Below are positions 12,786-60,231 of a stretch of 64,000 nucleotides of DNA, piece by piece. A program made the position numbers and the translations under genes. The DNA is from Medicago truncatula (lineage: Eukaryota; Streptophyta; Magnoliopsida; Fabales; Fabaceae), in NCBI RefSeq assembly GCF_003473485.1, contig NC_053042.1:38158762-38222761 (forward strand). The letters run 5' to 3'. The notes below the pieces were generated by a model. That model was given only the letters and a program-made list of their open reading frames with translations. It made no database searches and was not told where the DNA came from. Numbering within the stretch: position 1 is the stretch's first letter; each line of letters opens with the position of its first letter.

Positions 12786-13370
12786 TCAAAGCTCATTGTT
12801 ATTAGCCCCATCATTGTTGACCTTGGGTGATTTCTCATTCTCCTCATCAATGCTAACAACTCTAGTACTTTTAATCTGATCATGAGACAACTTATTAAGT
12901 GTCAAAGTAAGAACACCATTTTCTATCTTAGCCTTCACAGAATCCAAATCAGCATTTTCAGGCAATCTAAATTGCCTCCAAAATTTTCCATATGATCTTT
13001 CAGCTCTATGCCAACGATCACCTTTCTTCTCCACTTCTTTCTTCCTTTCTCCAATAACTCTCAGCACGCTGTTCTCTTCCACTTCTATCTTTATCTCATC
13101 TTTTCTCAACCCTGGCACGTCCATCGTTATGACATGTCCTTCTGGAGTTTCCTTCCAGTCTACTTTAACCGGTGACAGTGTCATTGCTGGTTGGTCTTTC
13201 TCAACTCCAAAGGAGGTTTGTTTCATGACGCAAAATGGATCTGGGAAATGATCGGATAAGAGAGGGATGGGGGAATCCATGGATGGTATTGGTGAACCTT
13301 TGGTTTTGGTACCAGTAAGAACAAGCAAGAAAAATGGTACTAGTAACATGTTGAGTTGTTGTAGCCTCAT
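12786..13370 (-). CDS. ER-type small heat shock protein, class A copy 1
   Basis: Intronless, 194 residues. A hydrophobic signal peptide ([18 protein letters not shown]) is followed by a variable N-arm and an alpha-crystallin domain. The domain starts at [18 protein letters not shown], carries [15 protein letters not shown], and ends with the family hallmark GVLTLTLNK. Such proteins hold unfolding clients in the ER lumen as ATP-independent chaperones. The C-terminus keeps a V-S-I motif (the I/V-x-I type that links subunits) and ends NNEL, a weak match to K/HDEL. Next to paralogues 22452 and 25373 the post-signal segment is altered (GTKTKGS where they have a FPTKAKG-type stretch). The promoter (TATATA near 13433-13438 on this strand) is nearly identical to those of 22452 and 25373 for about 150 bp. 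Confidence 0.93.
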
Positions 13371-16734: not shown

Positions 16735-16764
<30 letters not shown>

Positions 16765-16768
<4 letters not shown>

Positions 16769-17579
16769 CAGGATCCGTTGACACCAGGTGTCAACGTATT
16801 CGTTGACACCAAATTTCAACCGTTGATTTTATTTGATCAAAGGATAATAATAAAGTCCATATTCTATTTACTGTACATCCTTTTTCTCAATCACACACTA
16901 ACAAAGACCATCTCTTCCATGGACAATTCTTTGCTACTGGTCACTTGAGATCGTCATCCACAAACTTAAAAGAATCAAATAAGTTCCACAACATTGGATC
17001 CTTTCAAACTTAAATTATAACTTTCAAACTTTATATTCCGTAAAAAAAAAGACTTTCAAACTTTATATATATACATTGATTGATTGGTCAATAGATCTTA
17101 CAAGAAAAGCTCTCAAATATTGAATTTTAATGGAGTAATTATCTCAGTGGTTGAATACACGTTGGGGAATTTTAGTCACAAATATATGCGTTGATACCAA
17201 TGGATTATTAAGATGAAACGGAGGTAGGCACATGTATTTAGAAAAGCAAAATCAGCTCTATCTTAATTGATTTATGAATTTATTCTTTCAGCGGCATCGT
17301 GATTTCTAGAAAATTGGAAACATGTTCATATCAAACTTATGAGTTTTAATAAAATTGAACCCTGTAACCTAGATTAAATTGCTTACAGAAAAATCAAGAT
17401 TTGTTCTTTTGGATATTAATAGCGGCGATTATGTTTCTATAATTAAGAAGAAGATTGAAAGAAATGATACATAATAAATAGAAATGTGGCATTATTATTG
17501 GCCTTTGATTAAATAAAATCAACGGTTGAGATTTGGTGTCAACGAATCCGTTGACACCTGGTGTCAACGGATCCTGTCT

Positions 17580-17580
<1 letters not shown>
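16765..17580. mobile_element. Non-autonomous DNA transposon with about 90-bp terminal inverted repeats
   Basis: 816 bp. The left arm, from 16765, begins GAGACAGGATCCGTTGACAC. Its reverse complement ends at 17580, and the match continues for about 88 bp with few mismatches (to AAAGGATAATAATA / TATTATTGGCCTTT). Each arm contains a nested GTTGACACC/GGTGTCAAC palindrome. Long TIRs suggest a Mutator-like derivative. The element sits inside TA repeats on both sides (16735-16757 and 17583-17617), which hides any target duplication. The interior has no protein similarity I can see. Confidence 0.75.
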
Positions 17581-17623
<43 letters not shown>

Positions 17624-18173: not shown

Positions 18174-19506
18174 ATTATCACATATGAAGTATATTTATAC
18201 AAGTGTAGATATAATAATGCATATTCATCAAGTAAAGTTTGGAAGCTGTAAACAAAGCATAACTAAATTATTTCAAGCGTAACTTTGATTATGATAAACT
18301 TATTAGGTTTACTGCAGCTTTGTCCTTAAGTAATTTCCTCGCCTGTTTTAAATTTTCACCTCCTATAAATACTGATCCTTAATGTTAGTAATGTTCTTTT
18401 TTTTACATTTTACGACTCATTTTAAAACTAATAATGTTGCGAGATTTGGCGTGGAGAATCTCTTTTTCCATACCTTGTCTGATTTGAAGGAAGATATAAA
18501 ATGAGGTTTGTAACTGATTTTCATCGATATGAAAGGTTAACGAAAGAGTCCTCAGCAGATGTTGAATAGTTTTAGACATATCTCTTTGTTGAAATTTTTT
18601 TAGCTCTTATCCTTCAAAATTTATATCTTTTATTATTTGACTCAACGAGTTGAGTTTGAAAACAAAGAAATAAATTTATCTAAATAAAAATTAGAGACTA
18701 ATGAAATCCATAAATGTGTATGATAATGTCAACTATAACTTGTTTGTAGATTTATTTCATCTCAAACTTATTTATAACCATTTTTTTTAGTTTATTTTAG
18801 TAGTTAAAAATTTAGGTGAGTTGGACTCCAAAGGCTTATCAAAATTAAGTCTTAAGACTCAAAACTCAAAATATTTACAGAAATATTTATCATCCACTAA
18901 AAATATTTTCACATCTACACCACAATCTTATGAATGAATCAACTCCTCACCAATTAAACCAACTTTCATTAACTTAAGTTTTTATATTTAATTGATTGAA
19001 TTTAATCAAATCAATATTAACTAGTTCATGAACCTTTAAAAATAAAACTAGTTCACGGCTTCATGCACTTTTAGCTTATATGACAAGTTAAAGCTAAGTT
19101 GAGTGAGCTCCCTATATGTGTGCTTGTGAACTTTATAAAGCAATTTTATTTTTGAGTTATCTTTAACAGGATACATTAGTCGAAAAATGAATCAGACTTT
19201 AAATAAATGCAAGTAAATTCAGATAAGATAAAAGTGTATTTGTATGAAAGAATTTTTAAGTTAATTTATGTGTAGAGTGTATTTCTATATACATTTTATT
19301 GTTTGAATGATAAATTTTTGAAAGTTCATAAATTTAGTCCCACAAAATTTAAGAATGAACCATTTTATTAACCTATTTAAACATAAATTTAGAAATAAAA
19401 GAAATTCATATGAAACATTTAAACTTCTTAAAATTTATATTTTTCAATAATTTTAAAAGAGGTTAATGTCTATGTATGGCACTTGGCAGAACCATGTTTG
19501 TTATAA
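18174..19506. other. Intergenic; left outer arm of the heat shock inverted duplication
   Basis: From about 18630 onward this sequence is the reverse-complement match of about 31925-32770, with many substitutions and small gaps. Examples are TTTGAAAACAAAGAAATAAA versus its partner near 32730-32750, and the AAGAGGTTAATGTCTATGTA block versus 31913-31930. No gene seen. Confidence 0.6.
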
Positions 19507-19704
19507 GAAAATGTTTCATTCACACCATTTTCTCCATACACATAATGTACCACCCTCACGTGAGAGTGCGTGAGAGACAAAAAAATTATTATTTTTTTTT
19601 TTTTTTTATGAGTCGAGACCACGTGATACGTGTCATAACTGTGTGTGGATGTACAAGTGGTACATGCCACCTACCTATAGGTATCAATGTATCATTGCTC
19701 ATTC
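19507..19704. mobile_element. MITE inserted in the promoter of heat shock gene 19993
   Basis: 198 bp flanked by TTATAA on both sides (19501-19506 and 19705-19710). The inverted partner promoter at 31882-31887 has a single TTATAA between the same flanks (GAACCACGTTTG and CACACGAAG), which is the empty site. The ends are weakly inverted (AATGTTTCATTCACACC versus CAATGATACATTGATACC). The interior holds a poly-T tract and ACGTGTCATAACTGTG. Confidence 0.85.
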
Positions 19705-19715
19705 TTATAACACAC

Positions 19716-19743
19716 GAAGCCTCTGGAAGAGCTTGGAGAATTC
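19716..19743 (+). promoter_or_regulatory. Degenerate six-unit heat shock element
   Basis: GAA, CTC, GAA, GCT, GAG and TTC occur at exact 5-bp spacing, matching the alternating GAA/TTC pattern bound by heat shock factors at three of six units perfectly and the rest partly. It is conserved at 31849-31876 in the partner gene. A further perfect GAAnnTTC pair is at 19796-19803. Confidence 0.6.
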
Positions 19744-19865
19744 TTGCACTTAGAACCAACCACCATTCTCTTCTCCAAAACACCATACTAATCTCGAACA
19801 TTCTCAATCTATCTACGATTATGTCACTCCCATTTCACTCTTTACCATCCATATGTCATTTATAT

Positions 19866-19878
19866 GAATCTTCAAGAA
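19866..19878 (+). promoter_or_regulatory. Perfect triple heat shock element
   Basis: GAATCTTCAAGAA is a perfect GAAnnTTCnnGAA. It lies 24 bp upstream of TATAAATA (19903-19910) and 115 bp before the ATG of the heat shock gene at 19993. The same element and spacing recur in the promoter of gene 30979. Confidence 0.9.
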
Positions 19879-19902
19879 CCATGCATGCAACTTTTTACAA
19901 CC

Positions 19903-19910
19903 TATAAATA
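19903..19910 (+). promoter_or_regulatory. TATA box of heat shock gene 19993
   Basis: TATAAATA, 83 bp before the start codon and directly downstream of the triple heat shock element. Confidence 0.85.
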
Positions 19911-19992
19911 TAACATACCAGCAACTTAAAAAAAAAAAAAACATCAATACCACAAAATATACTCCATCATTTTCTTCCCTAAGCAACACAAC

Positions 19993-20574
19993 ATGAGGCT
20001 AGAACAACTCAACATGTTACTCGTACCATTTCTCTTGCTTATTCTTGTTGGTTATTTTCCTTCTAATGCAAAAGGGTCACTATTACCATTCATAGATTCT
20101 CCCAACACTCTCTTATCCGATCTCTGGTCTGATCGTTTCCCCGATCCATTTCGTGTCTTAGAACAAATCCCCTTTGGAGTTGAAAAAAACGAACCATCCA
20201 TGTCACTGTCACCAGCTAGAGTAGACTGGAAGGAAACTCCAGAGGGACATGTTATAATGTTCGACGTGCCAGGGATAAGAAAAGATGAGATAAAGATAGA
20301 AGTGGAAGAGAACAGGGTGTTGAGAGTGAGTGGTGAAAGGAAGAAAGAAGAAGAGAAACAAGGTGATCATTGGCACAGAGTTGAAAGATCTTATGGAAAA
20401 TTCTGGAGGCAATTTAGATTGCCAGAAAATGTTGATTTGGACTCAGTTAAGGCTAAAATGGAAAATGGTGTACTTACTTTGACACTTAATAAGTTGTCAC
20501 AAGATAAGACTAAAGGTCCTAGAATGGTTAGCATTGCTGAGGAGAGTGAGCACCCATCTAAACAAGAGCTTTGA
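19993..20574 (+). CDS. ER-type small heat shock protein, class B copy 1
   Basis: Intronless, 193 residues. Signal peptide at about 1-26 ([20 protein letters not shown]). The variable N-arm includes [20 protein letters not shown]. The alpha-crystallin domain spans about 76-168, from [10 protein letters not shown] through [15 protein letters not shown] to GVLTLTLNK. The V-S-I subunit-linking motif is at 179-181, and the C-terminus KQEL resembles the K/HDEL retrieval signal. Expected role: heat-induced holdase in the ER lumen. A perfect triple heat shock element sits beside the TATA box, so strong heat induction is expected. It is nearly identical in its second half to gene 30979, its inverted-duplicate partner. 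A MITE inserted upstream distinguishes this promoter from the partner's. Confidence 0.95.
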
Positions 20575-22451
20575 AATAGTCATGTGATTGTGATATTATA
20601 GTATTGTAGCAGTAAAATTGCTTTTTAATTACGTGTTTGATTAGTGATAAAGGGTTTCACATGTGGTCGTGTTTGTTTTGAGTCGGTTCTTGATAATGAG
20701 CCACTTCCAGTGTTGTTAAAGGCTTTATTATCTCTTAATGAATGAAACTAGTTGACTTGTGTGTCAATAGGCATCGAACATGAATTAGTTTATTTGTGTT
20801 TATTTACTGTGACCGTCAATAATCGTGGATGTTTCAACCATTTAACATCATATTAATTAAATAGGTATCCTCATTGCAGAGTATAATATTTGGATGTCAA
20901 TAGAGAATGATGGCTATGGAAGCACCTTCTCTTTACTTTTTGTGAACTTCATTCAATAAATCATAATGAAATAAAGAAAATTTTGTTGAAATGTAACGAT
21001 ATAGAATGATTTGTATGACATATTGTTAGATTGGATGTTCAAAACACTGGATTCGATAAGAAATATTGTTTTAAGTTGGTACTGATATGTGATTACGTTC
21101 AATGATGGTTTGACGGATTGTGTTAAGCATTTGGCATAATAGAGATTTCAAAATCATTCAGTTTCGATAGAATAAATTCAAATTGTCTATGAAAAGGTAA
21201 GATCAAAGGTTGAAGACACGTGAGAGCATATTAAGACATATGTCGAAGACTTTTAATTTATGGTTGTTATTTACGGTTACTTATTAATTATCTATATATA
21301 GAAGTTTTGAATAGGAAAAATAAGGGTCACAAATTAGAATACTGTAATCTTTAAGCTCAAAGTATCTAAGTTACGAGTGCATATCTTCTAGTGAAACTTT
21401 TAATGGAGAAAGTGATATGAACATTAGTACCATTCAATTAGTTCAACGTTGAGGCCCTGCATGGAGTGATGGAAAATAAATGACTTAGATTTTATTGGAC
21501 TCTTCAATTATAGAAGAGAATCTGCTCCACTAAGTTACATTGAGAATGTATGTATGATTTGATGTATTAGTCTACATTTATGTAATTATAATGCTTTTTT
21601 TGTTTTATTTTATTTTTTGGTACAATTCTTTTAATTTGTTTTACTTTCATTTCTTATATTGTATTTCTTTTAATTCTGAAAACCTGGATGTTAATTAAAT
21701 AATTTTATAAAATGAGTGATGTAGATAAAGGGTACCATTCAAACTGTCAAAGTGTGGTGCTATGTCGGGATGGTATAACATAAATATTTGTGAAGGTAGA
21801 AAGAGTCACACATCAATAAATGGGTTAAGAGGTAATATATGATTCCAATCTCGATGCCATTATTACTTTTGGCTTAAACATATTTTTTATCTCCTAACTC
21901 TTTAAAAAAAACCACATTCGAGCTCCTAACTTTACCCCTTTAATATACCGTGACTTTTCCATATAAATTTATTTGAATAATAACACATGATGCGTCCAAC
22001 TCATTCAGATAAGGGGCCACATGGACGATGATCTGGTCAAAATCAAAGAGAACTTCAAAGTTGCAAAAAGGATAAAGTTATGCAATACAAACTTATTATA
22101 AAAAATAAAATGAAAAACTTATTATATAAAAAAAAAAAAAAAAGGCGAGTACAAATAAATGCATGATCGAGCTTGGTATAGAGTGCTAATATTTGTGTCT
22201 CAACCAAACACTCACAATCATTTTGTGTTCTGGCCACTCCTCTTGTGTGTGGTACCAACACAAACACTGCATAGTAATTTAGCATGATCAATCTCAACTC
22301 ACAAAAATCTTCTTCTTACTCGTCAATCCAGCAGTTGCAAGTTGCAACTTCCTATGAACCATGCCACATTACAACCTATATATGCAACAAGACCACCAAT
22401 TCTGTTCCACCAAATTGAACAAACAAACATCACCACCTTAATATACTAGAA
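20575..22451. other. Spacer between heat shock genes, with class A promoter at its right end
   Basis: 20575-20765 is the 3' flank shared (inverted) with 30785-30978. 20766-22090 has no gene or partner that I can see. From about 22090 the left arm of the class A palindrome begins. This includes about 22181, where the flanks of the right-arm insertion block meet uninterrupted. TATATAT at 22377-22383 is the likely TATA box of gene 22452. No perfect GAAnnTTC or TTCnnGAA element was found in the roughly 350 bp before the start codon. Confidence 0.55.
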
Positions 22452-23600
22452 ATGAGGCTACAACAACTCAACATGTTACTAGTACCATTTTTCTTGCTTG
22501 TTCTTACTGGTGGTTTTCCTACCAAAGCAAAAGGTTTGCTACCACCTTCCATGGATTCTCCCAATCCTCTCTTAGCTGATCATTTCCCAGACCGATTTTG
22601 CGTCACGGAACAAATCCCCTATGGAGTTGAGATAGACCAATCAGCCATGACATCTATAGTAGATTGGAAGGAAACTTCAGATGAACATGTTATAATGATT
22701 GATGTGCCAGGATTTAGAAAAGATGAGATCAAGATAGAAGTGGTAGGGAACAGCGTGCTGAGTGTGATTGGAGAAAGGAAGAAAGAAGTGGAGAAGAAAG
22801 GTGATCGTTGGCATAGAGCTGAAAGGATGTATGGAAAATTCTGGAGACAGCTTAGATTGCCGGAGAATGCTGATTTTGATTCCGTGAAGGCTAAGGTGGA
22901 AAATGGTGTTCTTATTTTGACACTTAATAAGCTGTCCCATGAATATCAGATTAAAAGTATTAGAGTTGTTAGCATTGATAAGGAGAATGAGAAATCAGGC
23001 AAGCTTAATAATGATGGGGCTAATACCACTGAACTTTGAAATAAGCTTTTTAATTCTATGTTTGGTTTGAATAAAGGGATTTCACCTAGGATTTGGTTGT
23101 TAGTGTGATGAAATTAATCACTTGTTTGATGGTTAGTGTTGTAGAGGGTTTAGTTGTGTTTTGTAGCTTTATCTTTTATGTTTGATACTTCTTGAATTGA
23201 ATGGTATTTTTTTTTTGTCAAGGAATATCGTCTTTATCCTATAACTCTTTGAATTATGATATTATTTGTCGTTTTGTCTTCATTATTTTTTATATATATA
23301 TGATCGATGATCATATTAGCTCCAAGGTGATGTTCCACAAATCATATTTACAAATTAATATTTTTTGGGTAGTAATCTTCACCCATTAACTGATAGAGTC
23401 GTTGTCTTAACTAATTTTATTTGTCGTACATTTTTACACATTGATATGCAGAAATTAAAAGCAACAACCAGTTATTGATATTTTTATACTTTAATGGTTT
23501 TGAATTACTCTGAAACACTCTTTAAACATTCTAAATTAACTAATTACTTCTCAAAAATGTCAAATAGTTTAATTTTTAATGCACTAAAAAGTGTCTTAAA
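22090..23600. repeat. Left arm of the class A palindrome
   Basis: This arm carries gene 22452 with its promoter and 3' flank. Its reverse complement is found at 24730-26101 and, after an insertion block, at 28470-28545. Distal matches include GCACTAAAAAGTGTC-side sequence near 23590 with GTGCATTAAAAATTAAAC at 24730, and ACCAAGCTCGATCATGCAT versus ACCAAGCTCAATCATGCAC near 28477. The boundaries are approximate. Confidence 0.75.
22452..23039 (+). CDS. ER-type small heat shock protein, class A copy 2
   Basis: Intronless, 195 residues. Signal peptide [18 protein letters not shown], then a cleavage-like region with FPTKAKG. The N-arm is shorter than in class B ([19 protein letters not shown]), and the usual MxLSPxRVDWKE entry to the alpha-crystallin domain is reduced to MTSIVDWKE. 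The domain core is intact ([24 protein letters not shown]), as is the V-S-I motif. The tail ends TTEL rather than KQEL, so ER retrieval may be weaker. Promoter and 3' flank match genes 12786 and 25373. The proximal promoter shows no perfect heat shock element, so regulation may differ from class B. Confidence 0.93.
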
Positions 23601-25310
23601 GACACTCGTTGCATTTTCCAATAGTTTAATTGGAATCTCAAACCACTGATCAAAACTGTCACATATATTCCATGATCATCCGTATAGATTATGTTGCTTA
23701 CAACTTGTTTGCATTCATTTACACCACCAAGTCTCCTACAAGATATGTTATGTTAAAAACCCTTGGAAAGTCATGGTGAGACAACTTACATTTGAAACAC
23801 ATTTTATATAAAATCCCAAATATACTCTATCAAAAAGCCTCGCTACTTTTTCTTTCTTACTTTTACTCTGTTACCTCAAACCTCCACTGGAAGGATATGT
23901 TGAATCATAGAGATTGCACACATTTAAGTGGTTAAATTTGAAATGTGTTCTCATCTATGAAGCACGGATACGGATATGGACACGACACGGATACTGACAT
24001 GCCGACACAGCTAAATTTTTTAAAAAACTACATAATTCGGTGTAATTATATGTGTCGGTATCGTATCGGTGTCGAACACGACACATGTCTAATACGTTGA
24101 CACGTCTTATCTGAGGAGTCTCCGTGTTTCATAGGTTCTCACAGACCTCTAGAGCTTTACGTGATCACTTGCTGTTTCTCACTGTCTTTAAATTATATAT
24201 AGTAAGCCAATGTTTGGATCTATGCTAGCATTGCCTTTCTGGTGTCCCAATGTCCCTATAGTCCATATATATGCAAATCCATCATATTGGTTATTAACAT
24301 CCTGATAACTTGGATTGGTTTGATGAACTTTTTTTTTTTTGTCAAGAATTGATGAATTTTATATACTTTATGCTAATTATATATTTTAGAAATTAAATTA
24401 GAGAGATCGTGATAATTTAAGGACTAAATTAATGATTTATTCCTTATTTATTTTGAAAGTTTAATCACATATTCTCATTCTTTGTTTTTCTCTTGTTGTG
24501 TTGCCAAATAGATTTCACAAATAAAAAGTTTTCAACAAATGTTAATAGAGTGGTTTGATTTGGTTTCAAAGAATGCGGTTTGGATGTTAATAGACTATAT
24601 TGACAGAATGTTAATAGACTAGATTAGTGGTTTTCGAAGAATGTTTTCTCCGATACCTTAAAAACAACCCTGGATTTGGTCTTCTGTTTCCTAGAAATTC
24701 AGTATTTATGAAAAATTGTATATTTAGTGCATTAAAAATTAAACTATTTAACTCTTTTGAAAAGTAATTAGTTACTTAAAATGCCTATAGTTAAAGGGTG
24801 TTCGGCGTTAGCAAGACCATTAAAGTATAAAAGTATCAACAATTGGTTGCTAAAGTGTAAAAATGTACGACAAATAAAATTGGGTTACAACAACAACTCT
24901 ATCAATTAATGTGTGAAGGTTACCACTTACCTCCCAAAAAAAAATTACGTGTAAAGGTAGTTTCTATAAAAGTATTGAGAATGATTTGTGGAACATCACC
25001 TCTTAGAGTTAATATGATTATGGGTCATATAAAAAATAATGAAGACAAAATGACAAATAATATCATAATTTAAAGAGACATAGAGTAAAGACAATATTCC
25101 TTACCAAAAAAAAAAACCATTCAATTCAAGGAGCATCAAACATACAAAATAAAGCTACAGAGACATAAAACCTAACTAGCTATAGAGATTTCTAAACCCT
25201 CTACAACACTAATCATCAAACAAGTGATTAATTTCATCACACTAACAACTAAATCTTAGGTAAAATCCCTTTATTCAAACCAAACATAGATTTAAAAAGC
25301 TTATTTCAAA
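23040..25310. other. Palindrome spacer and arm ends
   Basis: 23040-23600 and 24730-25310 are the paired 3' flanks of genes 22452 and 25373. The spacer between them (about 23601-24729) is unpaired and contains a hAT-like MITE at 23955-24134. No gene seen. Confidence 0.55.
23955..24134. mobile_element. hAT-like MITE with 8-bp target duplication
   Basis: 180 bp starting CTATGAAGCACGGATACGG and ending CCGTGTTTCATAG. It is flanked by GTTCTCAT (23947-23954) and GTTCTCAC (24135-24142), an 8-bp duplication with one mismatch, as expected for hAT elements. It shares the interior CATAATTCGGTGTAATTATA with the copy at 6677-6840. It lies in the spacer of the heat shock palindrome. Confidence 0.8.
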
Positions 25311-25372
25311 GTTCAGTGCTACTATCCCCATTATTATTGATCTTGCCTGATTTCTCATCCTCCTCATCCTTG

Positions 25373-25870
25373 CTAACAAGAACCTTTGATCTTACCATGC
25401 GACAACTTATTAAATGTCAAAGTAAGAACTCCATTTTCCTTATTAGCCTTAATTGAATCCAAATCAGCATTCTCTGGCAATCTTAACTGTCTCCAGAATT
25501 TTCCGTACACCCTTTCAACTTTGTGCCAACGATCACCTTTTTTCTCAGCTTCTTTCTTCCTTTCTCCAATAATTCTCAGCATGCCGTTCTCTGCCACTCC
25601 GATCTTTATCTCACCTTTTCTCAACCCCGGCACGTCCATCATTATAACATGTTCATCTGAAGTTTCCTTCCAATCTACTGATTGGTCTTTCTCAACTCCA
25701 AAGGGGATTTCTTCCATGACGCAATATTGGTCTGGGAAATGATCAGCTAAGAGAGGATTGGGAGAATCCATGGAAGGTGGCACTGGACCTTTTGCTTTGG
25801 TTGGAAAACTACCAGCAAGAACAATCAAGAAAAAAAGTACTAGTAACATGTTGAGTTGTTGTAGCCTCAT
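25373..25870 (-). CDS. ER-type small heat shock protein, class A copy 3, C-terminally truncated
   Basis: Open frame of 165 residues with signal peptide ([20 protein letters not shown]), FPTKAKG, and an alpha-crystallin domain through [14 protein letters not shown] to GVLTLTFNK. It ends early at KIKGSC. Against copy 22452, about 5 bases are missing just before this stop. Downstream, in another frame, the old tail is still readable as [12 protein letters not shown]...STEL. The product therefore loses the V-S-I linker motif and the EL terminus. It also lacks about 8 residues before VDWKE, giving [10 protein letters not shown]. The promoter is intact and nearly identical to those of 12786 and 22452. 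It may be a young pseudogene or a shortened protein unable to form normal oligomers. Confidence 0.85.
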
Positions 25871-26101
25871 TTCTAGTATATTAAGGTACTGATGTTTATT
25901 TCTTCAATTTGGTCTTGTTGCATATATAGATTGTAATGTGGCATTGTTCATAGGCAGTTGCAACTGCTGAATAGACGAGTAAGAAGAAGATTGTTGTGAG
26001 TTGAAATTCAAGCAAAATTACTGAGTAGAAGTGTTTCATTTTGGTACCACACACAAAGGAGTGGCCAACACATAAAATGATTGTGAGTGTTTAGTTGAAC
26101 A

Positions 26102-26662
26102 CTGTTGGAACACTAGTGTATATTGGAAAAACTTGGAGTATACTAGTGAGTTTGTGGAGCCTTTGGAATGTAAACACAAGGATGGAGAAACTAGTGTAAA
26201 GTGTGAATTGAAAATTTTATGTCCCACATCGGGTAGATCACACACTCTAGTAGAAATCCTCCTTATAAATTGAGAGCTCGGGAATAGTATTCTTCACTCC
26301 AAAACTGAGAATCGAATACTCTTCTCTGGTTTTCTGCCCTTCTCATCTCCCGCGATTTGTGTTGACGAATCGTTCTTTTCCTCCTCCTCTTTCTGTGGGC
26401 TTCGGAAAATTGTGGGCTTCGGAAGAGTGGTCTAAGTACCATATCGAGGTGTGAGGTGTCATTTTCGAGCGATTTCTGGCAGTGCAGCCTTTAATCGTAC
26501 AGTAAGAATTTGGGCTGTTTTATCCTGGAGACGGCGCGGTTGCTAGTCTACCTTGCACAATTCAGGTAGTGCCGCGAAACGTCTTAAAGAGAGCGACTTG
26601 GTCGTGACTCATCCCGGTAATAGTTTCAAAAGCTCCATCGTATATTTTCAAATTACAAAAAC
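26102..26662. mobile_element. Possible LTR-like fragment within the right-arm insertion block
   Basis: Absent from the palindromic partner, so it was inserted after the duplication. It begins TGTTGGAACACTAGTG, contains TCCCACATCGGG and a promoter-like TATAAATTGAGAG, then a GC-richer stretch. This arrangement resembles a plant LTR or TRIM end. No internal coding region or second terminus was found, so it is a broken fossil of uncertain family. Confidence 0.4.
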
Positions 26663-26680
26663 AACCAAATATATTAGCAC

Positions 26681-27646
26681 AGGCTTTGTTTGGTAAGGCC
26701 ACACAGTTAGCTTATAGCTTATAAGCTTGTTCGACAAAAAAAGCTCTGTTTGGTAATGGTTTTTCACCACGAGCTTATAGCTTATTTTACGAGCTTATAA
26801 GCTATTTTTCAGATGCTATTCCAAGTAGTGTTTGAGCTTATAGCTTATAGCTTATTGTTTTTTCTTCCACTTTTGCCCTTACTATTTTATCTAAAATCCC
26901 CTTTTACCCTTTATAATTTACCTTATAAACATCCATAGCCTTACCTTATAATTACTCGTTTTGATCTATTGCATTCTCTTGTATTCTCGGTGCAATTGCA
27001 ATATAGCTCCAGTGCAATATATATTTTTTTTCATACATAAAATGACCATTGCCTTCAGTTTAAATAAATATTTTTTTATGAATTAAGTTTTTTTTTTCAT
27101 AAAAAGGACACATTTAATTTTTTTTGGTTACGTTTAAATTCTTTTTGTTAGGCTTAAATTGTTTTTATGAAGGGTGTTAGGCTTAAGCTATTTTTCATGT
27201 ATCATTTCACGTCTACATTTTTTTACGTCTAAATCATTTAAAACCCTAGTTAAAATAATCATATTTTAATACTTTTCTAGGCTTAAATTCACTAAACTCT
27301 TTATACTTTATTGACATGCTTATTTTATTTTTTAAAGAAATATACTTTTTTTTTTTTTGTCCAAATCTTTTACTCTTTATATTTTTTTCTGAGTAGATAC
27401 TTTTTATATTTTTCCAATGATAATGCATAAAAAATATATTAAATTAATAAATTATAAACACTTAAATATTAATTAATATAAATATTACTATGAAATAAGA
27501 ATGTCCTTTTATGTCATTTTACATTTATAAGTTAGTTGAACCACTAATTTTACCAAACACTTCAACTAGCTTATCAGCTATAAGTCATCAGCTATAAGCT
27601 ATCAGCTAACTTATAAGCTATCCGCTATTTTTACCAAACAGAGCCT
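26681..27646. mobile_element. TIR element 1 (GGCTyTGTTTGGTAA family)
   Basis: 966 bp beginning AGGCTTTGTTTGGTAA and ending TTACCAAACAGAGCCT. Subterminal arrays of AGCTTATAGCTTATAAGCT occur at both ends and the centre is AT-rich. It has no coding capacity. hAT-like ends are possible, but no target duplication was resolved. Confidence 0.75.
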
Positions 27647-27649
27647 ACT

Positions 27650-28470
27650 GGGTCTGTTTGGTAAACCCAAAAAAAGAGCTTTTAGCTCTTAGCTTATAGC
27701 TTATAAGCTCGTTTCACAAAAAAAGTTCTGTTTGGTAACACTTTTTGACCATGACCTTATAGCTTATTTCACGAGCTTATAAGCTATTTTTCAGAAGCTA
27801 TTCCAAGTAGCGTTTGAGCTTATAGCTTATAACTTCTCATTTTTTGTCTCATTTTTACCCTTATCAATTTAACAAAAATTCATATCTACCCTTTGTAATA
27901 AATAACTACATTGAAGAAAAACATAGCACTTTTAATCCCAGATTTCACTTTAACTAAATATATATGCTCACGCTTTTATTTATTTTTACAAAATATTTGC
28001 TCATGTTTACAAAAATAAAAACTACATTTTTTCTTAAAAAAATATATGTTACGTTTGCCTAAATAAATCATATTACGTTAATGTTAATTTTGTTTTTAAA
28101 TCTAAAAACAAAATTTTGTTTGCTTTTGGGTCAATACGTTTAATTTTGTTTTAGTGGGTAACAATTAATTTTTTTTTAAAGGTTTTGTTTAATTTTTTTA
28201 TAAAGTCTAAAAACTGAAATAAAATTAATTTTAAATAAAACATTAGCCAATTTATGAATTTAAAAATAACATGAAAGACATATTAGATTAATATATTTAA
28301 ATTATGAAATTTTAAATATCAATTGATACAAATTTTATAATGAATTAAAAATACCCTTTTATGTCATTTTACGTTTATAAGCTAGTTGAACTGCTAATTT
28401 TACCAAACACTTCAGTTAGCTTATCAGCTAAAAGCTATCAGCTAGCTTATAAGCTATCCGCTATTTTTAC
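27650..28470. mobile_element. TIR element 2, same family, right terminus lost
   Basis: 821 bp starting GGGTCTGTTTGGTAAACCC only 3 bp after element 1, with the same subterminal AGCTTATAAGCT arrays. It ends at CTATTTTTAC, without the ACCAAACAGAGCC terminus, directly against palindrome-arm sequence. Confidence 0.7.
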
Positions 28471-28545
28471 TATGTACCAAGCTCAATCATGCACTTATTT
28501 TTTTTACTCTCCTTTTTTTTATAATAAGGTTTGTATTGTGTTTTG

Positions 28546-30784
28546 TTTTTGGTTTCATATACACGTATTTTATCAGGATTGGTCTAAAAGAGTAAGACCA
28601 TTAAAGCAATCGTTTTGGACCTTCAATTTCTTTTTTGAAATTTTACTTATAAAAATACCTCTTTTTGTGATGAAATAAGAAGACCTTATGCTATACCATT
28701 TTCAAAATTAAAATTAATTATAACATTTTATTTAAAATTACTATTGTCTCAACAATATTAAGATTAAATCAATTGACATTATTATCAATTTAAAATAAAC
28801 AAATCGATTACATTTTTTTAAACAATTTTTATATAAACAAACTCATATATAGAATATTTAAACAAACTTCATATTATGAACTTTAAAAAGGTATCATCTT
28901 TAATTTCGTCTTAGACCTTCTAATGTGTTAGGTCTGCCCTTCATTTATTATTTATACACAAATAAAATGAAAATATTTCATGGTAGTTTTATAAAAATAA
29001 AAATAAATATATTTCATGGTAGTTTTATAAGAAAATAAAAAAAATTGACATTTGTTTTATAAATTATATTTCAACTTAAGAAAACAACTAAAAAGATAAG
29101 GTCTTTCAACAAAAAAAACCTAAGAAGATAAAGGGATTGCAATGGGTATCCAATGGGTAGAGTACTATAGTACCCTTCCCCATACCCGCGTTTGTAAAAA
29201 ATGTATGTATCCGAGCCCATACCCTCGTGGGTAATAACTTTAGTGTCTTTCCCTATACCCTGTAGGCACCTAGTGTCCATATCCGTACACATTACCCGCA
29301 CTTTAATTGTAAAAGGACAATAAAAAAACATCACAATTGAAAGAAAAAAAAAACCTATGATCCAAATTTTTTTTAAAGCAATTCATTAAATAGTAGAAAT
29401 CATAATATTTAACCAAATAAAAAAACATCCAAAATATTCCTCAAAAATTAAAATAAAAACATTAAAAATACATATAAATAAGTGCATGCTAAAATAAACA
29501 TCAAATTGATTTAAATCATGAATTTGTAGCTCGTGAGCTTATGAAGGTAAGGATGAAACGATTACCGTATTAATTTTGATGTTTAGGTTTATCTTTAAAT
29601 AGCTAAATAAATTAAATAATTTTATACCAAAAATTAATAAAATATTTATTATATTATATAAATATGTATATGCAGGTTGCAGGACTAGGTAGTAGTATAA
29701 TGTCCTTACCCGCATTCCTACCCATATAAGTTTGCGGGTAATTACCGGACCCAAGCCCATATCCATAAAAGCGGGATTTTACCCTATCCATTATGGATAT
29801 TTTTTGCAGTGTCCATGGAGTCTAGGTCCAAATGCCATCGTTAGATAAATATAAAAATCCTCAAAATTGAAATTGAAGAGCTTCAAATCGGATGTTTTCA
29901 AGTGTTCACAAACATTTTAGGCGTTGCTAATATTTCATTTTTTAAAATTATGATATATTTTTTGAAATATTTAAGTTAAGAAAATCATTCAAATGATTTT
30001 TTTACATTGATATTTGTGAACATGTTTTGTAACTTATATGCACCAAAAACGTATACATTCAATTTAAATATCACCATGTTGATATTTTTGTGCATTTTTT
30101 TTATGAACTAAATTAACCCACCTAAATTGACGGGAATCAAACCTGAGACCTTGATGATGTTTTATAAAACAAAATATCATAGTAGTATTATAGTGCGATT
30201 TGATTAAATTCAAATGCAAAAGGTTACACATCATCAAAACATAACAAAACACAACAATCTAGATTTTCATTTTTAAAGTAATTTAATAAGATATTTAGTT
30301 TAGCTTTAACTATTTAATTATCCAATTTCATTATCTAAATTCATGTTTTAGGTGTAGCAAATTCAAAAATTAGTTTCATTCTTGAAATTATTCCTCTTAA
30401 GTCCGTGACAAAATCCGTAAAACCTAATTTTGATGAGAATGTTGATATTGTTGGATTGAATACATTCATTCAGATTCAAACCAGAATCTCATAGTTAAGC
30501 ATTTTAGTTTTCAGATGACATTTCCCTCTTAATCCCTTTTGCAAAATGCGCAATTCTTTCTACATGTTTTTTAAGTTCACACCAGCAGCATTTCCACTTC
30601 CATACAATCCTCATTTCTGCTCCTAGTTCCACGTAATTGCTAGATATGTTAGTAAATTAAAATATGATATGATTTTTTCACAATTCAAACAAGCAGTTAT
30701 ATATAAAGAACATTTGTATGCCTTGATTACAAGATTATTATATGCAAAGAATCAAGATATTAGTAATTAAACTAAAAATGTCGT
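28546..30784. other. Intergenic region between palindrome arm and outer arm
   Basis: AT-rich, with no gene seen and no clear partner in the left half of the cluster. It contains the TACCCGC-rich element at 29134-29817, listed separately. Confidence 0.45.
29134..29817. repeat. TACCCGC-rich inverted-repeat element
   Basis: The ends read GCAATGGGTATCCAATGGGTAG and, inverted, GCAAAAAATATCCATAATGG. Multiple TACCCGC/GCGGGTA motifs lie within about 200 bp of each end around an AT-rich core. It is probably a non-autonomous element; the family was not determined. Confidence 0.4.
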
Positions 30785-30978
30785 ATAGACACAAAAGTCA
30801 ACTAGTTTCATTCATTAAGAGATAATAAGGTCCTTACAACACTAGAATTGACTCATCATCAAGAAGTTACTCACACAAACAAGACCTCGTGTGAAATCCC
30901 TTTATTCACTAATCAAACACATGATTTAAAAAGGCATTTTTACTACAATGATCATGATCACAATCACACATGACTATT

Positions 30979-31569
30979 TCAAAGCTCCTGCTTAGATGGT
31001 TTCTCATCCTCCTCAGCAATGCTAACCATTCTAGGACCTTTGATCTTATCATGTGACAACTTATTAAGTGTCAAAGTAAGTACACCATTTTCCATCTTAG
31101 CCTTCACTGAATCCAAATCAACATTTTCAGGCAATCTAAATTGCCTCCAGAATTTCCCATAAGATCTTTCAACTCTATGCCAATGATCACCTTGTTTCTC
31201 TTCTTCTTTCTTCCTTTCACCACTCACTCTTAACACCCTATTTTCTTCAACTTCTATCTTTATCTCATCTTTTCTTATCCCTGGAACATCCAACATTATA
31301 ACATGTCCATCTGGAGTTTCCTTCCAGTCTACTCTAGCTGGTGACATTGTCATGGATGGTTCAGTTTTTTCGACTCCAAATGGAATTTGTTCTAAGACAC
31401 GAAATGGATCTGGAAAACGATCAGACAAGAGATCGGACAAGAGTGTGTTGGGTGAATCCATGAATGGTAGCAATAACCCTTTTGCATTGGAAGGAAAATT
31501 ACCAACAAGAAGAATAATCAAGAGAATTGGTATAAGCGACATGTTGAGTTGTTGTAGCCTCATTTTCAT
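30979..31569 (-). CDS. ER-type small heat shock protein, class B copy 2
   Basis: Intronless, 196 residues from the first ATG. The paralogues start at the second in-frame ATG (31563, MRLQQLNM), so the initial MK is probably dispensable. Signal peptide, then FPSNAKG, an N-arm with [20 protein letters not shown], and an alpha-crystallin domain from [10 protein letters not shown] through [15 protein letters not shown] to GVLTLTLNK. It has a V-S-I motif and a C-terminal KQEL. Expected role: heat-induced ER lumenal holdase. The promoter has TATAAATA (31685-31692, minus strand) with a perfect triple heat shock element 23 bp upstream. Gene and flanks are the inverted duplicate of the 19993 locus. This promoter keeps the uninserted MITE site. 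Confidence 0.95.
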
Positions 31570-31684
31570 TACACTTTGAATTGAAAATATGTGTGTAGTT
31601 TATGATTTGAAACTTGAGGAAGAAAAGTTGTAAAATATATATTTTTTTCTTCAATTTGGTGGAAGTAGAAATGCTGATGTGTTG

Positions 31685-31692
31685 TATTTATA
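31685..31692 (-). promoter_or_regulatory. TATA box of heat shock gene 30979
   Basis: TATAAATA on the minus strand, in the same context (CCTATAAATA) as the partner promoter. Confidence 0.85.
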
Positions 31693-31715
31693 GGTTTAAA
31701 ATGTTGCATGCATAA

Positions 31716-31728
31716 TTCTTGAAGATTC
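31716..31728 (-). promoter_or_regulatory. Perfect triple heat shock element
   Basis: The minus strand reads GAATCTTCAAGAA, identical to 19866-19878 and at almost the same distance from the TATA box. A two-unit GAAnnTTC site is at 31789-31796. Confidence 0.9.
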
Positions 31729-31848
31729 TATAAATGACATATGGATGGTAGAGAGTGAAATGGAAGTGACATAATTGTCGATAGATTAGAATGTTCTGGA
31801 TTATTATAGTGTTTTGGAGAAAGGAAAGGTGGTTGGTTCTAAGTGCAA

Positions 31849-31876
31849 GAATTCTCCAAGCTCTTCCAGAGACTTC
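31849..31876 (-). promoter_or_regulatory. Degenerate six-unit heat shock element
   Basis: The minus strand reads GAA, CTC, GAA, GCT, GAG, TTC at 5-bp intervals, the conserved counterpart of 19716-19743. Confidence 0.6.
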
Positions 31877-31912
31877 GTGTGTTATAACAAACGTGGTTCT
31901 GCCAAGTGCCAT

Positions 31913-33427
31913 ATATAGACATTAACCTTTTTAAAATAATTGAAAAATTGAAGTTTTAAGAAGTTTAAACGTATAATATGAATTTCTTTTGTTTCAAAAT
32001 TTATGTTTAAATAGGTTAATAAAATTGTTCATTCTTAAATTTTGTGGGACTAAATTTATATATCAACTTTCAAAAATTTATCATTCAAACAATAAAATAT
32101 ACATAGAAATACCCTCTAAACATAAATTAACTTACAAATTCTTTCATACAAATACACTCTTATCTTATCTAAATTTTACTTGAATTTATTTAAAGTCTAA
32201 TTCATTTTTCGACTAATGTATCCGGTTAAAGATAACTTAAAAATGAAATTGCTTTATAAAGTTCACAAGCACACAGCTCACTCAACTTAGCTTAACTTGT
32301 CTTATAAGCTAAATGTGCATGAAGCCATGAACTAGTTTTATTTTTAAAGGGTCATGAACAAGTTAATGTTGATTTGATTAAATTCAATTGATTAAACATA
32401 AAAACTTAAGCTAATAAAAGTTGGCTTAGTTGGTACAAAGTTGACTCATTCACAAGATTATAATATAGGTGTGAGGATCTCTTTGGTGGTTGATATGTAA
32501 ATAATTTCGTAAACACTCTTTGAGCTTTGAGGGCTGACTTTGGTAAGCCTCCAAAGTCCCACTCACCTAAATTTTTATCTATCAAATAAACTAAAAAAAT
32601 GATTATGATTGATGTTAAAAAATAAGTTCCGGATGAGTAAATCTACAAGCAATTTATTGTTGACATTATCATACACATTAAAATGAAATTATGGATTTCA
32701 TTAGTCTCTGATTTTCATTTCGATAAATTTATTTCTCTGTTTTCAAAGCCGACTAGTTCAGTGAAATAACAATAAGAAAAACTCAACTTTATATTTAAAA
32801 AAATTAATAAAACAACCATGCAAAAACATTTTTTTTTTAGAGAACCATTCAAAAACATTTGAAAATCACATGAAATATAAGAATGACCGTAAGCTTATAA
32901 AGAGCGATGTTGATATATCACCAGAAAAGAGAAGGAAAAAAAAAATAAAAAATCAACGTCACTCTTTAGAAATTTAAGCTAATAGTCATTCTTGTTTTTA
33001 TAAGTGAAATGGTGACATGATTGGGGTGAAAAACACCAAAGCAAAGAGAAATGAATGAACTAATGTAGTATCAAGTAGTTTTTAAATGTTGTTCTATTGT
33101 GGACAATCAATCAAATGATCATTCTTTATAGACCATTTTTTAAACATTTTTGTTTATAGGCTCTTTATCCTTTGATAATCATTGTTAGGCTTCTTGATAC
33201 AACGTATTTTGGGATTTAATATAAAATGTTTTAAATGTAAGTTCTCTCACCATGCTTGATCATAGCCTATCTTCCTTCCAAGAGACTTGGGGTTGTAAAT
33301 GAATACAAACAATTTATAAACAACATAATCTATACATATGGAATATATGTGACAATTTATGAGGTTTGAGTCACCAATTATAAACTATAAAAGGTTTGTA
33401 TAGTACTGCATGTGTTTCCTATGAATT
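31913..33427. other. Right outer arm of the duplication, then spacer to the CLD1 gene
   Basis: 31913-32770 is the inverted partner of about 18630-19495. 32771-33427 is AT-rich with no gene seen and includes the 3' flank of the hydrolase gene. Confidence 0.55.
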
Positions 33428-36012
33428 TTAAAGAGTGGCCAACCATGGAAGCAATTTTTCATGGACTAATTCAGGCCTGTCATCATGAGGACAATGTCCA
33501 ACCCCTTCAAGCATGAAAAGTTGAACATTTTCTTGTTGAGAAGGCAATGAAGAAAAGTACTTTCCAACAGGTCCATCAATTGGAGTAAAGGGATCTTCAT
33601 CTCCCCATAAAAGTAAAATAGGCAATGTGATTTTTGGCACCAATTGCACTGGATTAGGCCCTGGTGGCCCTGTTACAATCGATACAAATGCATCTAAGGC
33701 TCCTTCAGCATTCGCCGGTTCCCTAATGATCTTCAGAATCAAGATATGAACTCTTATAAGTAAATGTTGTTTAAGAAGAAAAAACTAATACTCCTTCTGG
33801 TGATTCCATTGAACTTTGAAAACGACAAATAAATAACAATTTTTGTCTACAAAAGCAACAGTTAAAAAGAAACGGAGTAGTAAACAGCAATCATAGCCTT
33901 AATTTACCTCCACAAGTTCATCATCCACAGACTCTTTATTTCCATACACTGAACTCAAGATGTTCCTCAAATTCTCTCTGCATTTAATTGATACAGTTTT
34001 ATGTTTCCTATCCAAAAATTTAGGGAAACTATGGCCTAATCTAAAGAGAATACGTACCTTTGTTTAACACGCTCAAAAATTGCAGAGGCAATTCCCTTTT
34101 GATTCAATAAAAAATCAATCAGCCAAAGCAAGGGTAGGAGTAACTTGATCCTCCAATCATCAACAATTGCTTTGTTGTTCATGCCACCAGAACAATTTAA
34201 TAGCACAATTCCTCTAACTAGAGTTTCACTTGAATCTGGTCGAATACTACATTATAAGAAGGAAAAAAATAAGAAGATTCAGAAATTTAAGATTACATCT
34301 TCAGCTACAAGTATATGGTAACAAACATACATGCCTGAAGCAGCAGCAATGACACAAGCAAGACTTCCAACAGAGTTTCCTATTAGTACTGTTGGCTTCT
34401 GAACAACTTCATCCAAGAAATCCAAGATCAACTGTTTGTATTGAAAATTATACCTCATAAGTTAAATTTGGTAAGCTAGAGTGTAAATAACAGTTCTTAA
34501 TCGCAGTTGCGGTCTTAGTTGCAGTTGTTCTGCAAACCTTGATATTGAGGCAAAACGCGGCCGCAATTACAGTTACAATGCAGTTGCAGAAATCTCTAAA
34601 ATAGTTACATTGCGGCTGCAGTTGTAGTTTGGACTGCAATTTGGAACTACGATTTTAATGATGTCGGACTAAAAGGTCGATAGATAAATACCTCGGCCCA
34701 TGTTTCCATGGTATATGAAAAGCCTGGTGGCTTATCTGATGCTCCAAAACCAAGAAGATCAATAGCATAAACAGTATAATTCTCAGACAGTGTTTTGATA
34801 TTCCTGAAAAATAAAAATTGTGATGCCTTTACAACCCAATTTGGCTTAAGAAAAATAGTTGAACTCAGTGATTAATATGTCATAGAGTAAAAAAATGTGA
34901 CATTTTAGAGGCATTGGTTGTGAATATCAACATTGTTTTAACTACATGGACATGCATGATTGAGAAGAAAGGACATGTTTTTACACACCTTCTTCTCAAT
35001 CATGTAAGGCCGTGTAGTTAAAATAATAACCTTGTTGAGAATATTGGATCTATATACTTTCACTTTCGATTTGAATTTATCGGTTTTTAATTTCACTTCA
35101 ACTTAAAAACATAAGAGAATATAGATTTACTTTTACAATTTTTGAAACAAGTTTAGCATTTTTCAGAAATTTTGAAAATATCAAAGCATTGTTTTCATTG
35201 TTTCTAAAAATGCATTCTTTCAAATTTGTCTTTCATAGCCTCTCTATCATAAAACAATTTTTACTGCATGAGCTGTTCATCTTAGCAATTTAGAATAAAT
35301 ATAAATTTTGGAAAATGATAAATAAAAAGTAAACGGGTCCTAAATTTTCAAACCACTTTAAGCACTTTAACGCATGGAGTGATTATGCACCATTTAGGCA
35401 CTAATTCATTTCCTAGTATAATTAACTACCATTTAGGCACTAAAATGCACATTATTATTTTTCATAATTTTTATGTGACAGCAACATAACACTATAGTCA
35501 CACAAAAGAATATAAAGTGATAAACAAGGATAATGATATCTTTTAGCAAAAAAATGAGTGGATGAGAATTGAGAAAGAAAAAAAACTATGAGTTATTGAC
35601 AGTGGCAAACATACCTGCGCCAGTGAGGAATGGAAGCACCAAAGCCATGGACAAGTAACAGAGGAGGGTTATTGGACTTTGCAGAATCTGAAGAAACAAA
35701 ATAATTTATAGAATATTCACCCTTCCACTTCCACTTAAGACATTTCTGCTTTATCTTTTCAACTTCAGATAATGATCCTGAAGTTTCTATGGAAGCAGCA
35801 GAAGAAGAAGTTGAGTTGATGATCACACTTTTACTGTTTCTACCACCATTGTTTTTGGTGCTTAATTGGTTTGGATGAAGATAACAATGAAGAAGAGTGT
35901 TCTTTGGTGTAGTGGTTTTTGTGGATAGGAACAAGGGTCCATTATTGGTGCTGTTGAACCTTTCAAGTTGTTTGAGAAACCCAACTGAATGAACAGCACT
36001 TGTCACTTCCAT
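33428..36012 (-). CDS. CLD1: Plastid alpha/beta hydrolase, chlorophyll dephytylase (CLD1) orthologue
   Basis: Six exons on the minus strand: 36012-35615, 34803-34692, 34431-34331, 34246-34058, 33977-33908, 33730-33428. They give 390 residues with consistent phases. The first 70 or so residues are Ser/Thr/Asn-rich, like a chloroplast transit peptide. LLLVHGFGASIPHWRR gives the oxyanion loop, and GNSVGS places the nucleophile at Ser190. GDEDPFTP gives the acid (Asp336) and GVGHCPHDD the histidine (His369). The sequence follows Arabidopsis At5g38520 (recalled), which removes phytol from chlorophyll during photosystem II repair and affects heat tolerance. The exon 3 donor (GGCAT|GTATGT) is the least certain splice site. 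Intron 1 holds a fold-back at 34936-35023. Intron 2 holds a GCAGTTGC-rich stretch. A piece of exon 1 is duplicated at 43658-43730. Confidence 0.9.
34488..34640. repeat. GCAGTTGC/GCGGC-rich repeat in CLD1 intron 2
   Basis: Multiple near-copies of GCAGTTGC and GCGGCYGCARTT in both orientations within 150 bp. GC content is well above the rest of the intron, suggesting the remains of a small inserted element. Confidence 0.4.
34936..35023. repeat. Fold-back repeat in CLD1 intron 1
   Basis: Arms TTTTAACTACATGG...CATGATTGAGAAGAA and the complement TTCTTCTCAATCATG...CCGTGTAGTTAAAA, each about 35 bp, separated by about 18 bp. It is a small MITE-like hairpin. Confidence 0.65.
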
Positions 36013-58612: not shown

Positions 58613-60231
58613 TTTAAACTGTTTGATGTTTTTTCTAAAGAGGATAGTTGGATTACGCAAGTGTATTTAATCTTATGGTGAGTCAACAACAACTAATTAA
58701 TTTTCACTTTCTTCTTCTTCTTCCTCACTCTTGTTTATCATTTTCATCATTTTTTTCCAAAAAAATCAGAAACATCAACAATCATCAACAACAACCCATA
58801 TTAAATTTGATTTCAATTAAAAATCTAAATGAAAAACTGAATTGAAGTTTTACAAAAGGATTTAATGAAGTGAAAATAATTCATGAATTGAAGTTTTCAA
58901 CCATATTTAACAGCACAATATTCTCAGCAACACCTCCACAACATTATCCACAGGGAAAATAAAATAAAATCTGTCATGAATAGGTTCGATTATGTAACAT
59001 CACCCAAGAGAAATTATGTAACCTCTCCAACCTGTACCAGAAACGTAAAAACAGAAGGAAGAAAACGCATAAGATCCGAAAACGTGAAACCCATAACAGG
59101 AGGAAAAAACACATAAGATCTGGAAGAAGCAACTCTGAAGAAGAGGAAAACAGGATAAAACGAGGAAGAAAACGCGATCCAGAACCAAACCCTCCATCGA
59201 GTGAAACGCGATCCAAACCAATGAGGAGATTGGAGGTGATTTCAATGTGGATTTGGTGGATTTGGGGGGGTTTTGGGTTTTGAGATGCAAATTGATTTTG
59301 TATTTGAGAGTGGGAGAAGGAGAAGAGAGGAAAAGTTTTGATAGAGAGAGAATGGAGAAGAGATGCTACAGTAACTAGGTTTGTATTTGCTTTCCTCTTG
59401 TTCTTGCTGAATCTGTTAACGTGTGCTCCTTGATTTCAAGCAATGGAAGAGTTTTTTTTTTTTTGTTACAAAGCAAATTAGAAAACAGAATAACAGGAAA
59501 AGAAACAAAGAAGAAAACACTAGCGCCTAATAAAAATAGAACCTATCTCATCTGTTCTCAACAGAGGAATAAGTAACTCCGGAGGCGAAGAGTGAACCGT
59601 GAAAGCAACATCAGTCGAAGCTCCAAATTTGGCCATATAATTCGCGCATTGGTTACCTTCTCTAAGCGAATGTTCAAGAGAGAAATTTCTAGAGCTTGGT
59701 AGGTCTTTGATGTTTTGAATGATAACCGCGTAAACATGGTACTGACAGATATCTTGCTTGATGAGATTGACGGTGAGGAGAGAATCTGAATAGCAGGCCA
59801 CTTCCTCAAAATTTAAGTTGATAGCTAACCTTAATCCTTGATAAAGGGCCATAAGTTCCGCGAACAGAATGTCTGAAGGGCTGTTTATATAACCTGAAAA
59901 GCCTGATATGTAGGTGTCGGAATGGTTGCGCAATACTCCACCAAAACCTGTTCGATAAATTATAAATTGGTTAAATTGGTGAAAATAACAACATATACGA
60001 TAAAAAAAATCTGGGTATTTTTTTTTATAAAAATGATGATGAGGTAAAGAAAAAGATAAAGGAAGAAGATGAAAAAAAAGGTAAAATAAATTAAGTATTG
60101 GTGGTTCACAGGAAGATACAATATTCTTGCATGATCCAACGGTCGTCTTTCTTAAAAAAAGACCAAAGGGTTAAAATTAGAAATATTAATAAGGTTTATG
60201 GTGGACCACTCTTAAGTTGGTCCACCATAGA
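58540..60231. mobile_element. Pack-MULE-like inverted-repeat element carrying an RNase H domain
   Basis: The left end TCTATGGTGGATCAACCTTA and right end TAAGTTGGTCCACCATAGA are inverted. The similarity continues, diverged, for about 120-135 bp inward (for example AGTTGGATTACGCAAG versus CGTTGGATCATGCAAG on the other strand). Each terminus is itself palindromic (TATGGTGGA...TCCACCATA). The interior of about 1.4 kb has gene-like, GC-richer sequence (59000-59300) and an RNase H domain. A 12-bp direct repeat, TTAAGTTTAACC, lies outside both ends (58518-58529, 60235-60246) but at unequal distances, so it is not a clean target duplication. A (TA)n tract lies at 58580-58607. Confidence 0.6.
59520..59958 (-). 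pseudogene. RNase H-like (RVT_3) domain fragment
   Basis: The open minus-strand frame reads GFGGVLRNHSDTYISGFSGY, then FAELMALYQGLRLA (with the catalytic-type Glu), CYSDSLLTVNLI (Asp) and EHSLREGNQCANYMAKFGAS. It is the RNase H domain of plant L1-type LINEs and the single-domain proteins derived from them. The first catalytic Asp region is missing. A splice-acceptor-like TTTATCGAACAG directly precedes GFGGVL, so it may have been one exon. The frame is undisturbed for about 140 codons, unlike the LINE remnant at 44-48 kb. No upstream exon was identified. Confidence 0.65.

Follow-up and report, generated by a model that had tools for sequence, protein, structure and literature searches.

How did a mirrored set of four small heat shock genes in Medicago truncatula arise, by one inverted duplication or by two, and does it behave as an unstable palindrome? 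The genes lie in a stretch of 64,000 nucleotides (C1:38158762-38222761; hereafter the window), which we compared with itself and with the whole genome (429,922,655 bases in 42 contigs). An earlier note, made from the letters of the window alone, had described two gene pairs coding for endoplasmic reticulum (ER) small heat shock proteins in mirror order, here called A and A' (outer pair) and B and B' (inner pair). We found that the structure is a real, old and ordinary segmental duplication with birth-and-death decay, a fresh case of a known type. We put the probability at about 0.72 that it began with one inverted duplication of the segment, after which repeats were inserted and the copies diverged. 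A literature search brought up no account of this locus, which does not prove its absence from the literature.

The duplication includes non-coding flanks

In a self-BLAST of the window, the genes stand in the order A(+) B(+) B'(-) A'(-), so the four mirrored genes and their strands had all been given correctly. The inner arms align at 22195-23588 against 26102-24723 (1461 columns, 79.7% identity), and the outer arms align in a gene-side piece (19702-20769 against 31890-30784; 1116 columns, 84.9%) and a distal piece (18626-19506 against 32777-31882; 915 columns, 84.3%), with an E value of 0 for all three. The inner arms are 1394 bp and 1380 bp long around a spacer of 1134 bp, as expected from the earlier figures of about 1.4 kb and 1.1 kb, and the outer arms are 2144 bp (A) and 1994 bp (A') long, matching the roughly 2 kb, with promoters and 3' flanks, that this pair had been said to share. 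On the 5' side the outer arms reach about 1.37 kb (A) and 1.21 kb (A') from the start codon, and on the 3' side about 195 bp beyond the stop; the 3' flanks of B and B' lie in duplicated DNA for about 550-650 bp. Homology in opposite orientation thus covers non-coding flanks and not gene bodies alone, as in a segmental inverted duplication. Both unmatched inner gaps that had been reported (20766-22090 and 28546-30784) are present, and the B' arm picks up again beyond a 2.36-kb interruption (Table 1).

A genome-wide search with protein A gave 43 matches, and seven family members were detected: A, A' and five B-type copies (B, B', C, D and P5). Gene C, a fifth copy within the window, had been overlooked; D (C1:37346639-37347148, about 0.8 Mb from the window) and P5 (C5:27200901-27201351) came from the genome protein search and DNA comparison. 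The reading frames of B and C are open throughout, and three of the five B-type copies look broken: B' carries a 5-base deletion that leads to an early stop, also missed before, D has no start codon, a shifted signal region and the C terminus NNNELGNN, and P5, besides in-frame stops and shifts, has lost its 3' end. C and D are 88.3% identical over 788 columns, which exceeds the identity of C to the other window copies. Their flanks align only partly, and a downstream flank distance of 1.01 (Kimura two-parameter distance, K80) was discarded as a bad alignment. The pairing of C with D rests on identity, as the tree described below gives no resolution (27.5/57).

Flank divergence and a third anchor favor one event

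To compare the ages of the two pairs, we measured divergence in their flanks and coding sequences. In global alignments, non-coding K80 is 0.156 (0.135-0.179) over 1358 columns for A/A' and 0.171 (0.141-0.200) over 804 columns for B/B'. In local alignments, which omit stretches that align poorly (for example ~70 bp just 5' of the A start), the values are 0.105 for A/A' (1266 columns) and 0.098 for B/B' (747 columns). Flank divergence of the two pairs is indistinguishable (Fisher P=0.69). Synonymous divergence (Ks) is 0.300 (0.201-0.453) for A/A' and 0.250 (0.146-0.382) for B/B', and the path lengths in the tree are about 0.125 (A-A') and 0.129 (B-B').

A third anchor lies in the spacer, where we found an overlooked inverted copy (h') of the 3' flank of the neighboring alpha/beta-hydrolase gene (h). 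In the whole genome, h has two detected matches, itself and h'; because only these two were detected, we ruled out that 23621-23840 is a transposon. The h/h' alignment scores 178, compared with at most 33 for 200 pieces of the window, and its divergence of 0.145 (0.091-0.209) is not significantly different from that of A/A' (P 0.16) or of B/B' (P 0.11). The order at the locus is therefore A B / h' B' A' / h hydrolase, which is expected if an inverted A-B-h block was inserted between B and h.

The earlier note had left open whether there was one event or two. Because the flanks of A/A' and B/B' have diverged alike and h' sits inverted in the spacer, a single event is favored, short of proof. 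The ancestral order would have been A(+) B(+) h, with h flanking the 3' end of a convergent hydrolase gene; the A-B-h block would have been copied once, inverted and placed between B and h, likely by template switching during replication. A single event with such an insertion step is most likely what produced the order and orientation that we observe. Later, repeats would have entered both halves, homologous stretches would have been lost and the copies would have diverged by ordinary mutation, with A and A' kept strongly constrained as canonical heat-regulated ER chaperones, and the B type left without a recognizable heat-shock element and without the C-terminal ending KQEL, B' being truncated. 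Assuming about 1e-8 synonymous substitutions per site per year, taken as general background, Ks values of 0.25-0.30 place the duplication at roughly 12-15 million years ago.

Unmatched intervals and alternative histories

Inserted repeats make up much of the unmatched DNA, but not the whole (Table 1; each repeat search scored the best 40 candidates only). Among these candidates, the three pieces of the repeat stack that splits the B' arm (26105-26669, 26681-27647 and 27650-28465) have best other copies at 88%, 95% and 97% identity; since the best are 95-97% identical, these repeats are probably younger than the duplication. One repeat in this stack is bordered by GGCTTTGTTTGGTAA / TTACCAAACAGAGCC-like inverted ends, and we take it to be hAT-like.

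Several observations weigh against a single duplicated block. In intervals 21685-22101, 24145-24722 and 32778-33186, and over much of 28545-29127 and 29853-30783, the DNA is low-copy or repetitive in part only. The intervals between B and h (32778-33186 against 23841-24722) are not homologous, with a score of 22 where the null comparison has a 95% point of 32 and a maximum of 36 (n=200). The A-B and B'-A' intervals align at their ends only (22102-22191/28462-28544 and 20740-20769/30813-30784), and no homology was found in the rest, where the score of 47 is repeat-like (null 95% point 44, maximum 54, n=100). Homology is thus not continuous across the block once later insertions are set aside. 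In addition, h/h' identity is nominally lower (0.869 compared with about 0.905), although the difference is not significant, and absolute distances vary with the alignment method. Finally, in a tree built on 789 of 1227 columns (support given as Shimodaira-Hasegawa-like approximate likelihood ratio test/bootstrap), A+A' (100/100) and B+B'+P5 (97.9/96) are well supported, but the sister pairing of B with B' is weak (73.1/69), and P5 as sister of B or of B' is not rejected (approximately unbiased test, AU, 0.33 each); a tree that pairs C with B' is rejected (AU 0.0004). Because the non-homologous intervals reach beyond the repeats, it must be assumed either that one half suffered deletions or that templates were switched.

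This last point bears on a single complex replication-based event with several template switches, in which h', B' and A' were laid down as separate pieces and never formed one continuous block. Such an event would account for three anchors that are equally old and yet have non-homologous filler between h' and B'; however, part of this filler is repeat, and insertions and deletions could yield the same picture after such divergence, so we regard it as unlikely. If A and B had instead been duplicated in inverted form independently, though at similar times, with h' copied separately, the lack of homology in the A-B and B-h intervals would fit, as would the weak B/B' pairing, inside which P5 could fall. 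This history would nevertheless have to place three anchors in mirror order with indistinguishable divergence, which makes it unlikely too. We therefore retain the single inverted duplication of an A-B-h block as the preferred history.

No support for an active palindrome

The earlier note had proposed that a long palindrome invites hairpin or gene-conversion behavior and copy-number change. Between the arms, exact runs reach no more than 53 bp for A/A' and 52 bp for B/B', indels are many, and neither near-identical arms nor conversion tracts, the marks of a recombinogenic long palindrome, were detected. A fragment test for conversion over the gene region, with 21 pairs and 219 polymorphic columns, left no pair significant after correction for 21 tests. 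The uncorrected p values are 0.0065 for C-B' (the smallest), 0.027 for C-B, 0.063 for B/B' and 0.077 for A/A'; old or short conversion events may have occurred. A has a lower Ks to all four B-type genes compared than its counterpart A' has. Conversion from a B-type gene into A was ruled out (longest A-like run 6, p 0.64); when the 89 differences between A and A' were set against the B type, 45 were A-like, 38 were A'-like and six were neither.

Despite the closely spaced 1.4-kb inverted arms and the nominally long shared fragments of C-B' and C-B, arms only 80-85% alike make it very improbable that conversion or hairpins drive change here today, or that the arms are an assembly artefact, since a collapsed or hairpin-chimeric read gives near-identical arms. 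Copy-number change stands as old birth and death (seven copies, three of them broken-looking) and not as palindrome instability. A useful comparison is primate GSTT2, a tandem inverted gene duplication in which gene conversion is reported to have kept copies as much as 99.4% alike (PMC3375281). As at this locus, a gene was copied inverted beside its source; in contrast, the arms here show lower identity and no conversion signal after correction.

Outer and inner genes differ in promoter and C terminus

ER-type plant small heat shock proteins are defined by a signal peptide and a KDEL-like C terminus, and KQEL is an ER-retention ending. The Hsp20 domain was found in A, A', B, B' and C in a PF00011 genome search (49 matches in total), and in B, B' and C also by Pfam scan. 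The N termini of these five proteins are hydrophobic and signal-peptide-like, as judged by eye. In gene A', an in-frame ATG upstream at 31569 would add 2 aa. The KQEL ending is present in A and A' only and absent from all B-type copies. The genes thus code for Hsp20-domain proteins with a putative signal peptide and are candidate ER small heat shock genes, as described earlier.

To identify heat-shock elements, we scored a three-unit motif out of 9 in the 300 bp and 1.5 kb upstream of each gene. A perfect 9/9 element is present at -128 in A and at -166 in A', and scores of 8 or 9 within 300 bp were obtained for all ten further small heat shock genes scored, a non-random choice from the 49 PF00011 matches of the genome. 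Over the same distance the score is 6 or 7 for each of the five B-type copies, as it is for 363 of 400 random 300-bp pieces of the window. Within 1.5 kb, none of the five has an element of at least 8/9 (gapped or variant elements were not tested), compared with 139 of 300 random 1.5-kb pieces at this level and 10 of 300 at 9/9; the 1.5 kb upstream of B' is mostly inserted repeat. Because the five B-type copies form one clade, the absence of the element counts as one evolutionary change.

The Ka/Ks ratio (nonsynonymous to synonymous divergence) is 0.15 (0.08-0.25) for A/A', 0.46 (0.26-0.81) for B/B' and 0.37 (0.22-0.58) for B/C. By this measure A and A' are under strong constraint, and the B/B' and B/C values suggest a constraint that is weaker, yet real. 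The term stress gene family, used for the whole set before, fits A and A' by their promoters and does not fit the inner pair, which lacks a recognizable heat-shock element. From their sequences, A and A' are likely the canonical heat-regulated pair, the B type having likely lost its heat-shock element together with the KQEL ending; heat control seems to be gone from the inner type. Known plant ER small heat shock proteins suggest that the state of A is ancestral.

Common bean nodulin 22 (PvNod22), a small heat shock protein of the ER, is induced under heat or oxidative stress and also in roots that are in symbiosis with rhizobia or mycorrhizal fungi (PMC9783675; also PMC8146911). The copies here share with such plant ER-type (class IV) proteins the Hsp20 domain and a signal-peptide-like N terminus, a likeness by description; unlike them, the B-type copies lack KQEL and a recognizable heat-shock element. 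The soybean Hsp20 family, of the same domain family, has four ER members, and putative heat-shock elements were reported in 50 of 50 promoters examined (PMC3852298), in contrast to the absence from five of five B-type copies here, although the motif definitions differ. A Medicago 'nodulin 22', MTR_3g055450, is named in PMC5507277; we ruled it out as this locus because its name indicates chromosome 3.

Features of the window

Table 1. Positions of the duplicated arms, gene copies, third anchor and repeats in the window
Feature	Position	Strand	Remarks
Left outer arm: upstream region, gene A, 3' flank	18626..20769	+	split by repeat insertion at ~19507-19703
Left inner arm (B arm)	22102..23588	+	includes a distal part, 22102-22191, with its match at 28462-28544
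Right inner arm (B' arm)	24723..26102	-	self-BLAST
B' arm distal piece, displaced	28462..28544	-	71% to 22102-22191
Right outer arm (A' arm)	30784..32777	-	self-BLAST
Gene A	19993..20574	+	Hsp20 protein, 193 aa, C-terminal SKQEL
Gene A'	30979..31563	-	Hsp20 protein, 194 aa, C-terminal SKQEL
Gene B	22452..23039	+	Hsp20 protein, 195 aa, C-terminal NTTEL
Gene B'	25373..25870	-	165 aa; Pfam HSP20 match ends at profile position 92 of 102
Gene C	12787..13370	-	B-type, 194 aa, C-terminal NNNEL
h, 3' flank of alpha/beta-hydrolase gene	33187..33388	-	40-241 bp beyond its stop codon
h', inverted copy of h in spacer	23621..23840	+	
Last exon, alpha/beta-hydrolase gene	33428..33742	-	Abhydrolase_6, 26.5 bits (cut-off 26.3)
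Repeat insertion upstream of A, absent from A'	19507..19703		best other copy 80% (best 40 candidates)
Repeats between A and B, several pieces	20811..21684		up to 82% (best 40 of 208)
High-copy short repeat in spacer, like a miniature inverted-repeat transposable element	23942..24144		76-84% to 39 other copies (best 40 of 947)
Repeats, ~2.36 kb in three pieces	26105..28465		splits B' upstream arm ~235 bp before start codon
Repeat, ~0.7 kb, in B'-A' interval	29128..29852		up to 88% (best 40 of 613)

Between C and A there is a separate inverted repeat of about 160 bp (16735-16892 / 17453-17611, 87.5% identical). Elsewhere in the window, O-methyltransferase genes with Methyltransf_2 and Dimerisation domains form a direct duplicate pair (38544-39469/51145-52076 and 41617-41929/52653-52962) with 84-86% DNA identity, a flavin adenine dinucleotide oxidase frame resembling berberine-bridge enzyme lies at 4440-6086 (+), and a frame at 59523-60170 (-) with a reverse-transcriptase-like RVT_3 (RNase H) domain is probably a retroelement remnant.

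What the locus means for duplicate chaperones

The B type may be an ER small heat shock lineage freed from heat-shock-factor control and KQEL retention, with the intact copies B and C kept for another purpose, for example a tissue-specific or symbiotic one, and the locus would then be a natural experiment that holds both types in duplicate; we offer this as a tentative and somewhat doubtful suggestion. Copies with and without a heat element stand side by side here, which makes for a clean test of regulatory loss or change in duplicate chaperones, in a duplication of stress genes that is dated and ordered. The locus also means that a long inverted repeat can persist in a plant genome, diverging like ordinary DNA.

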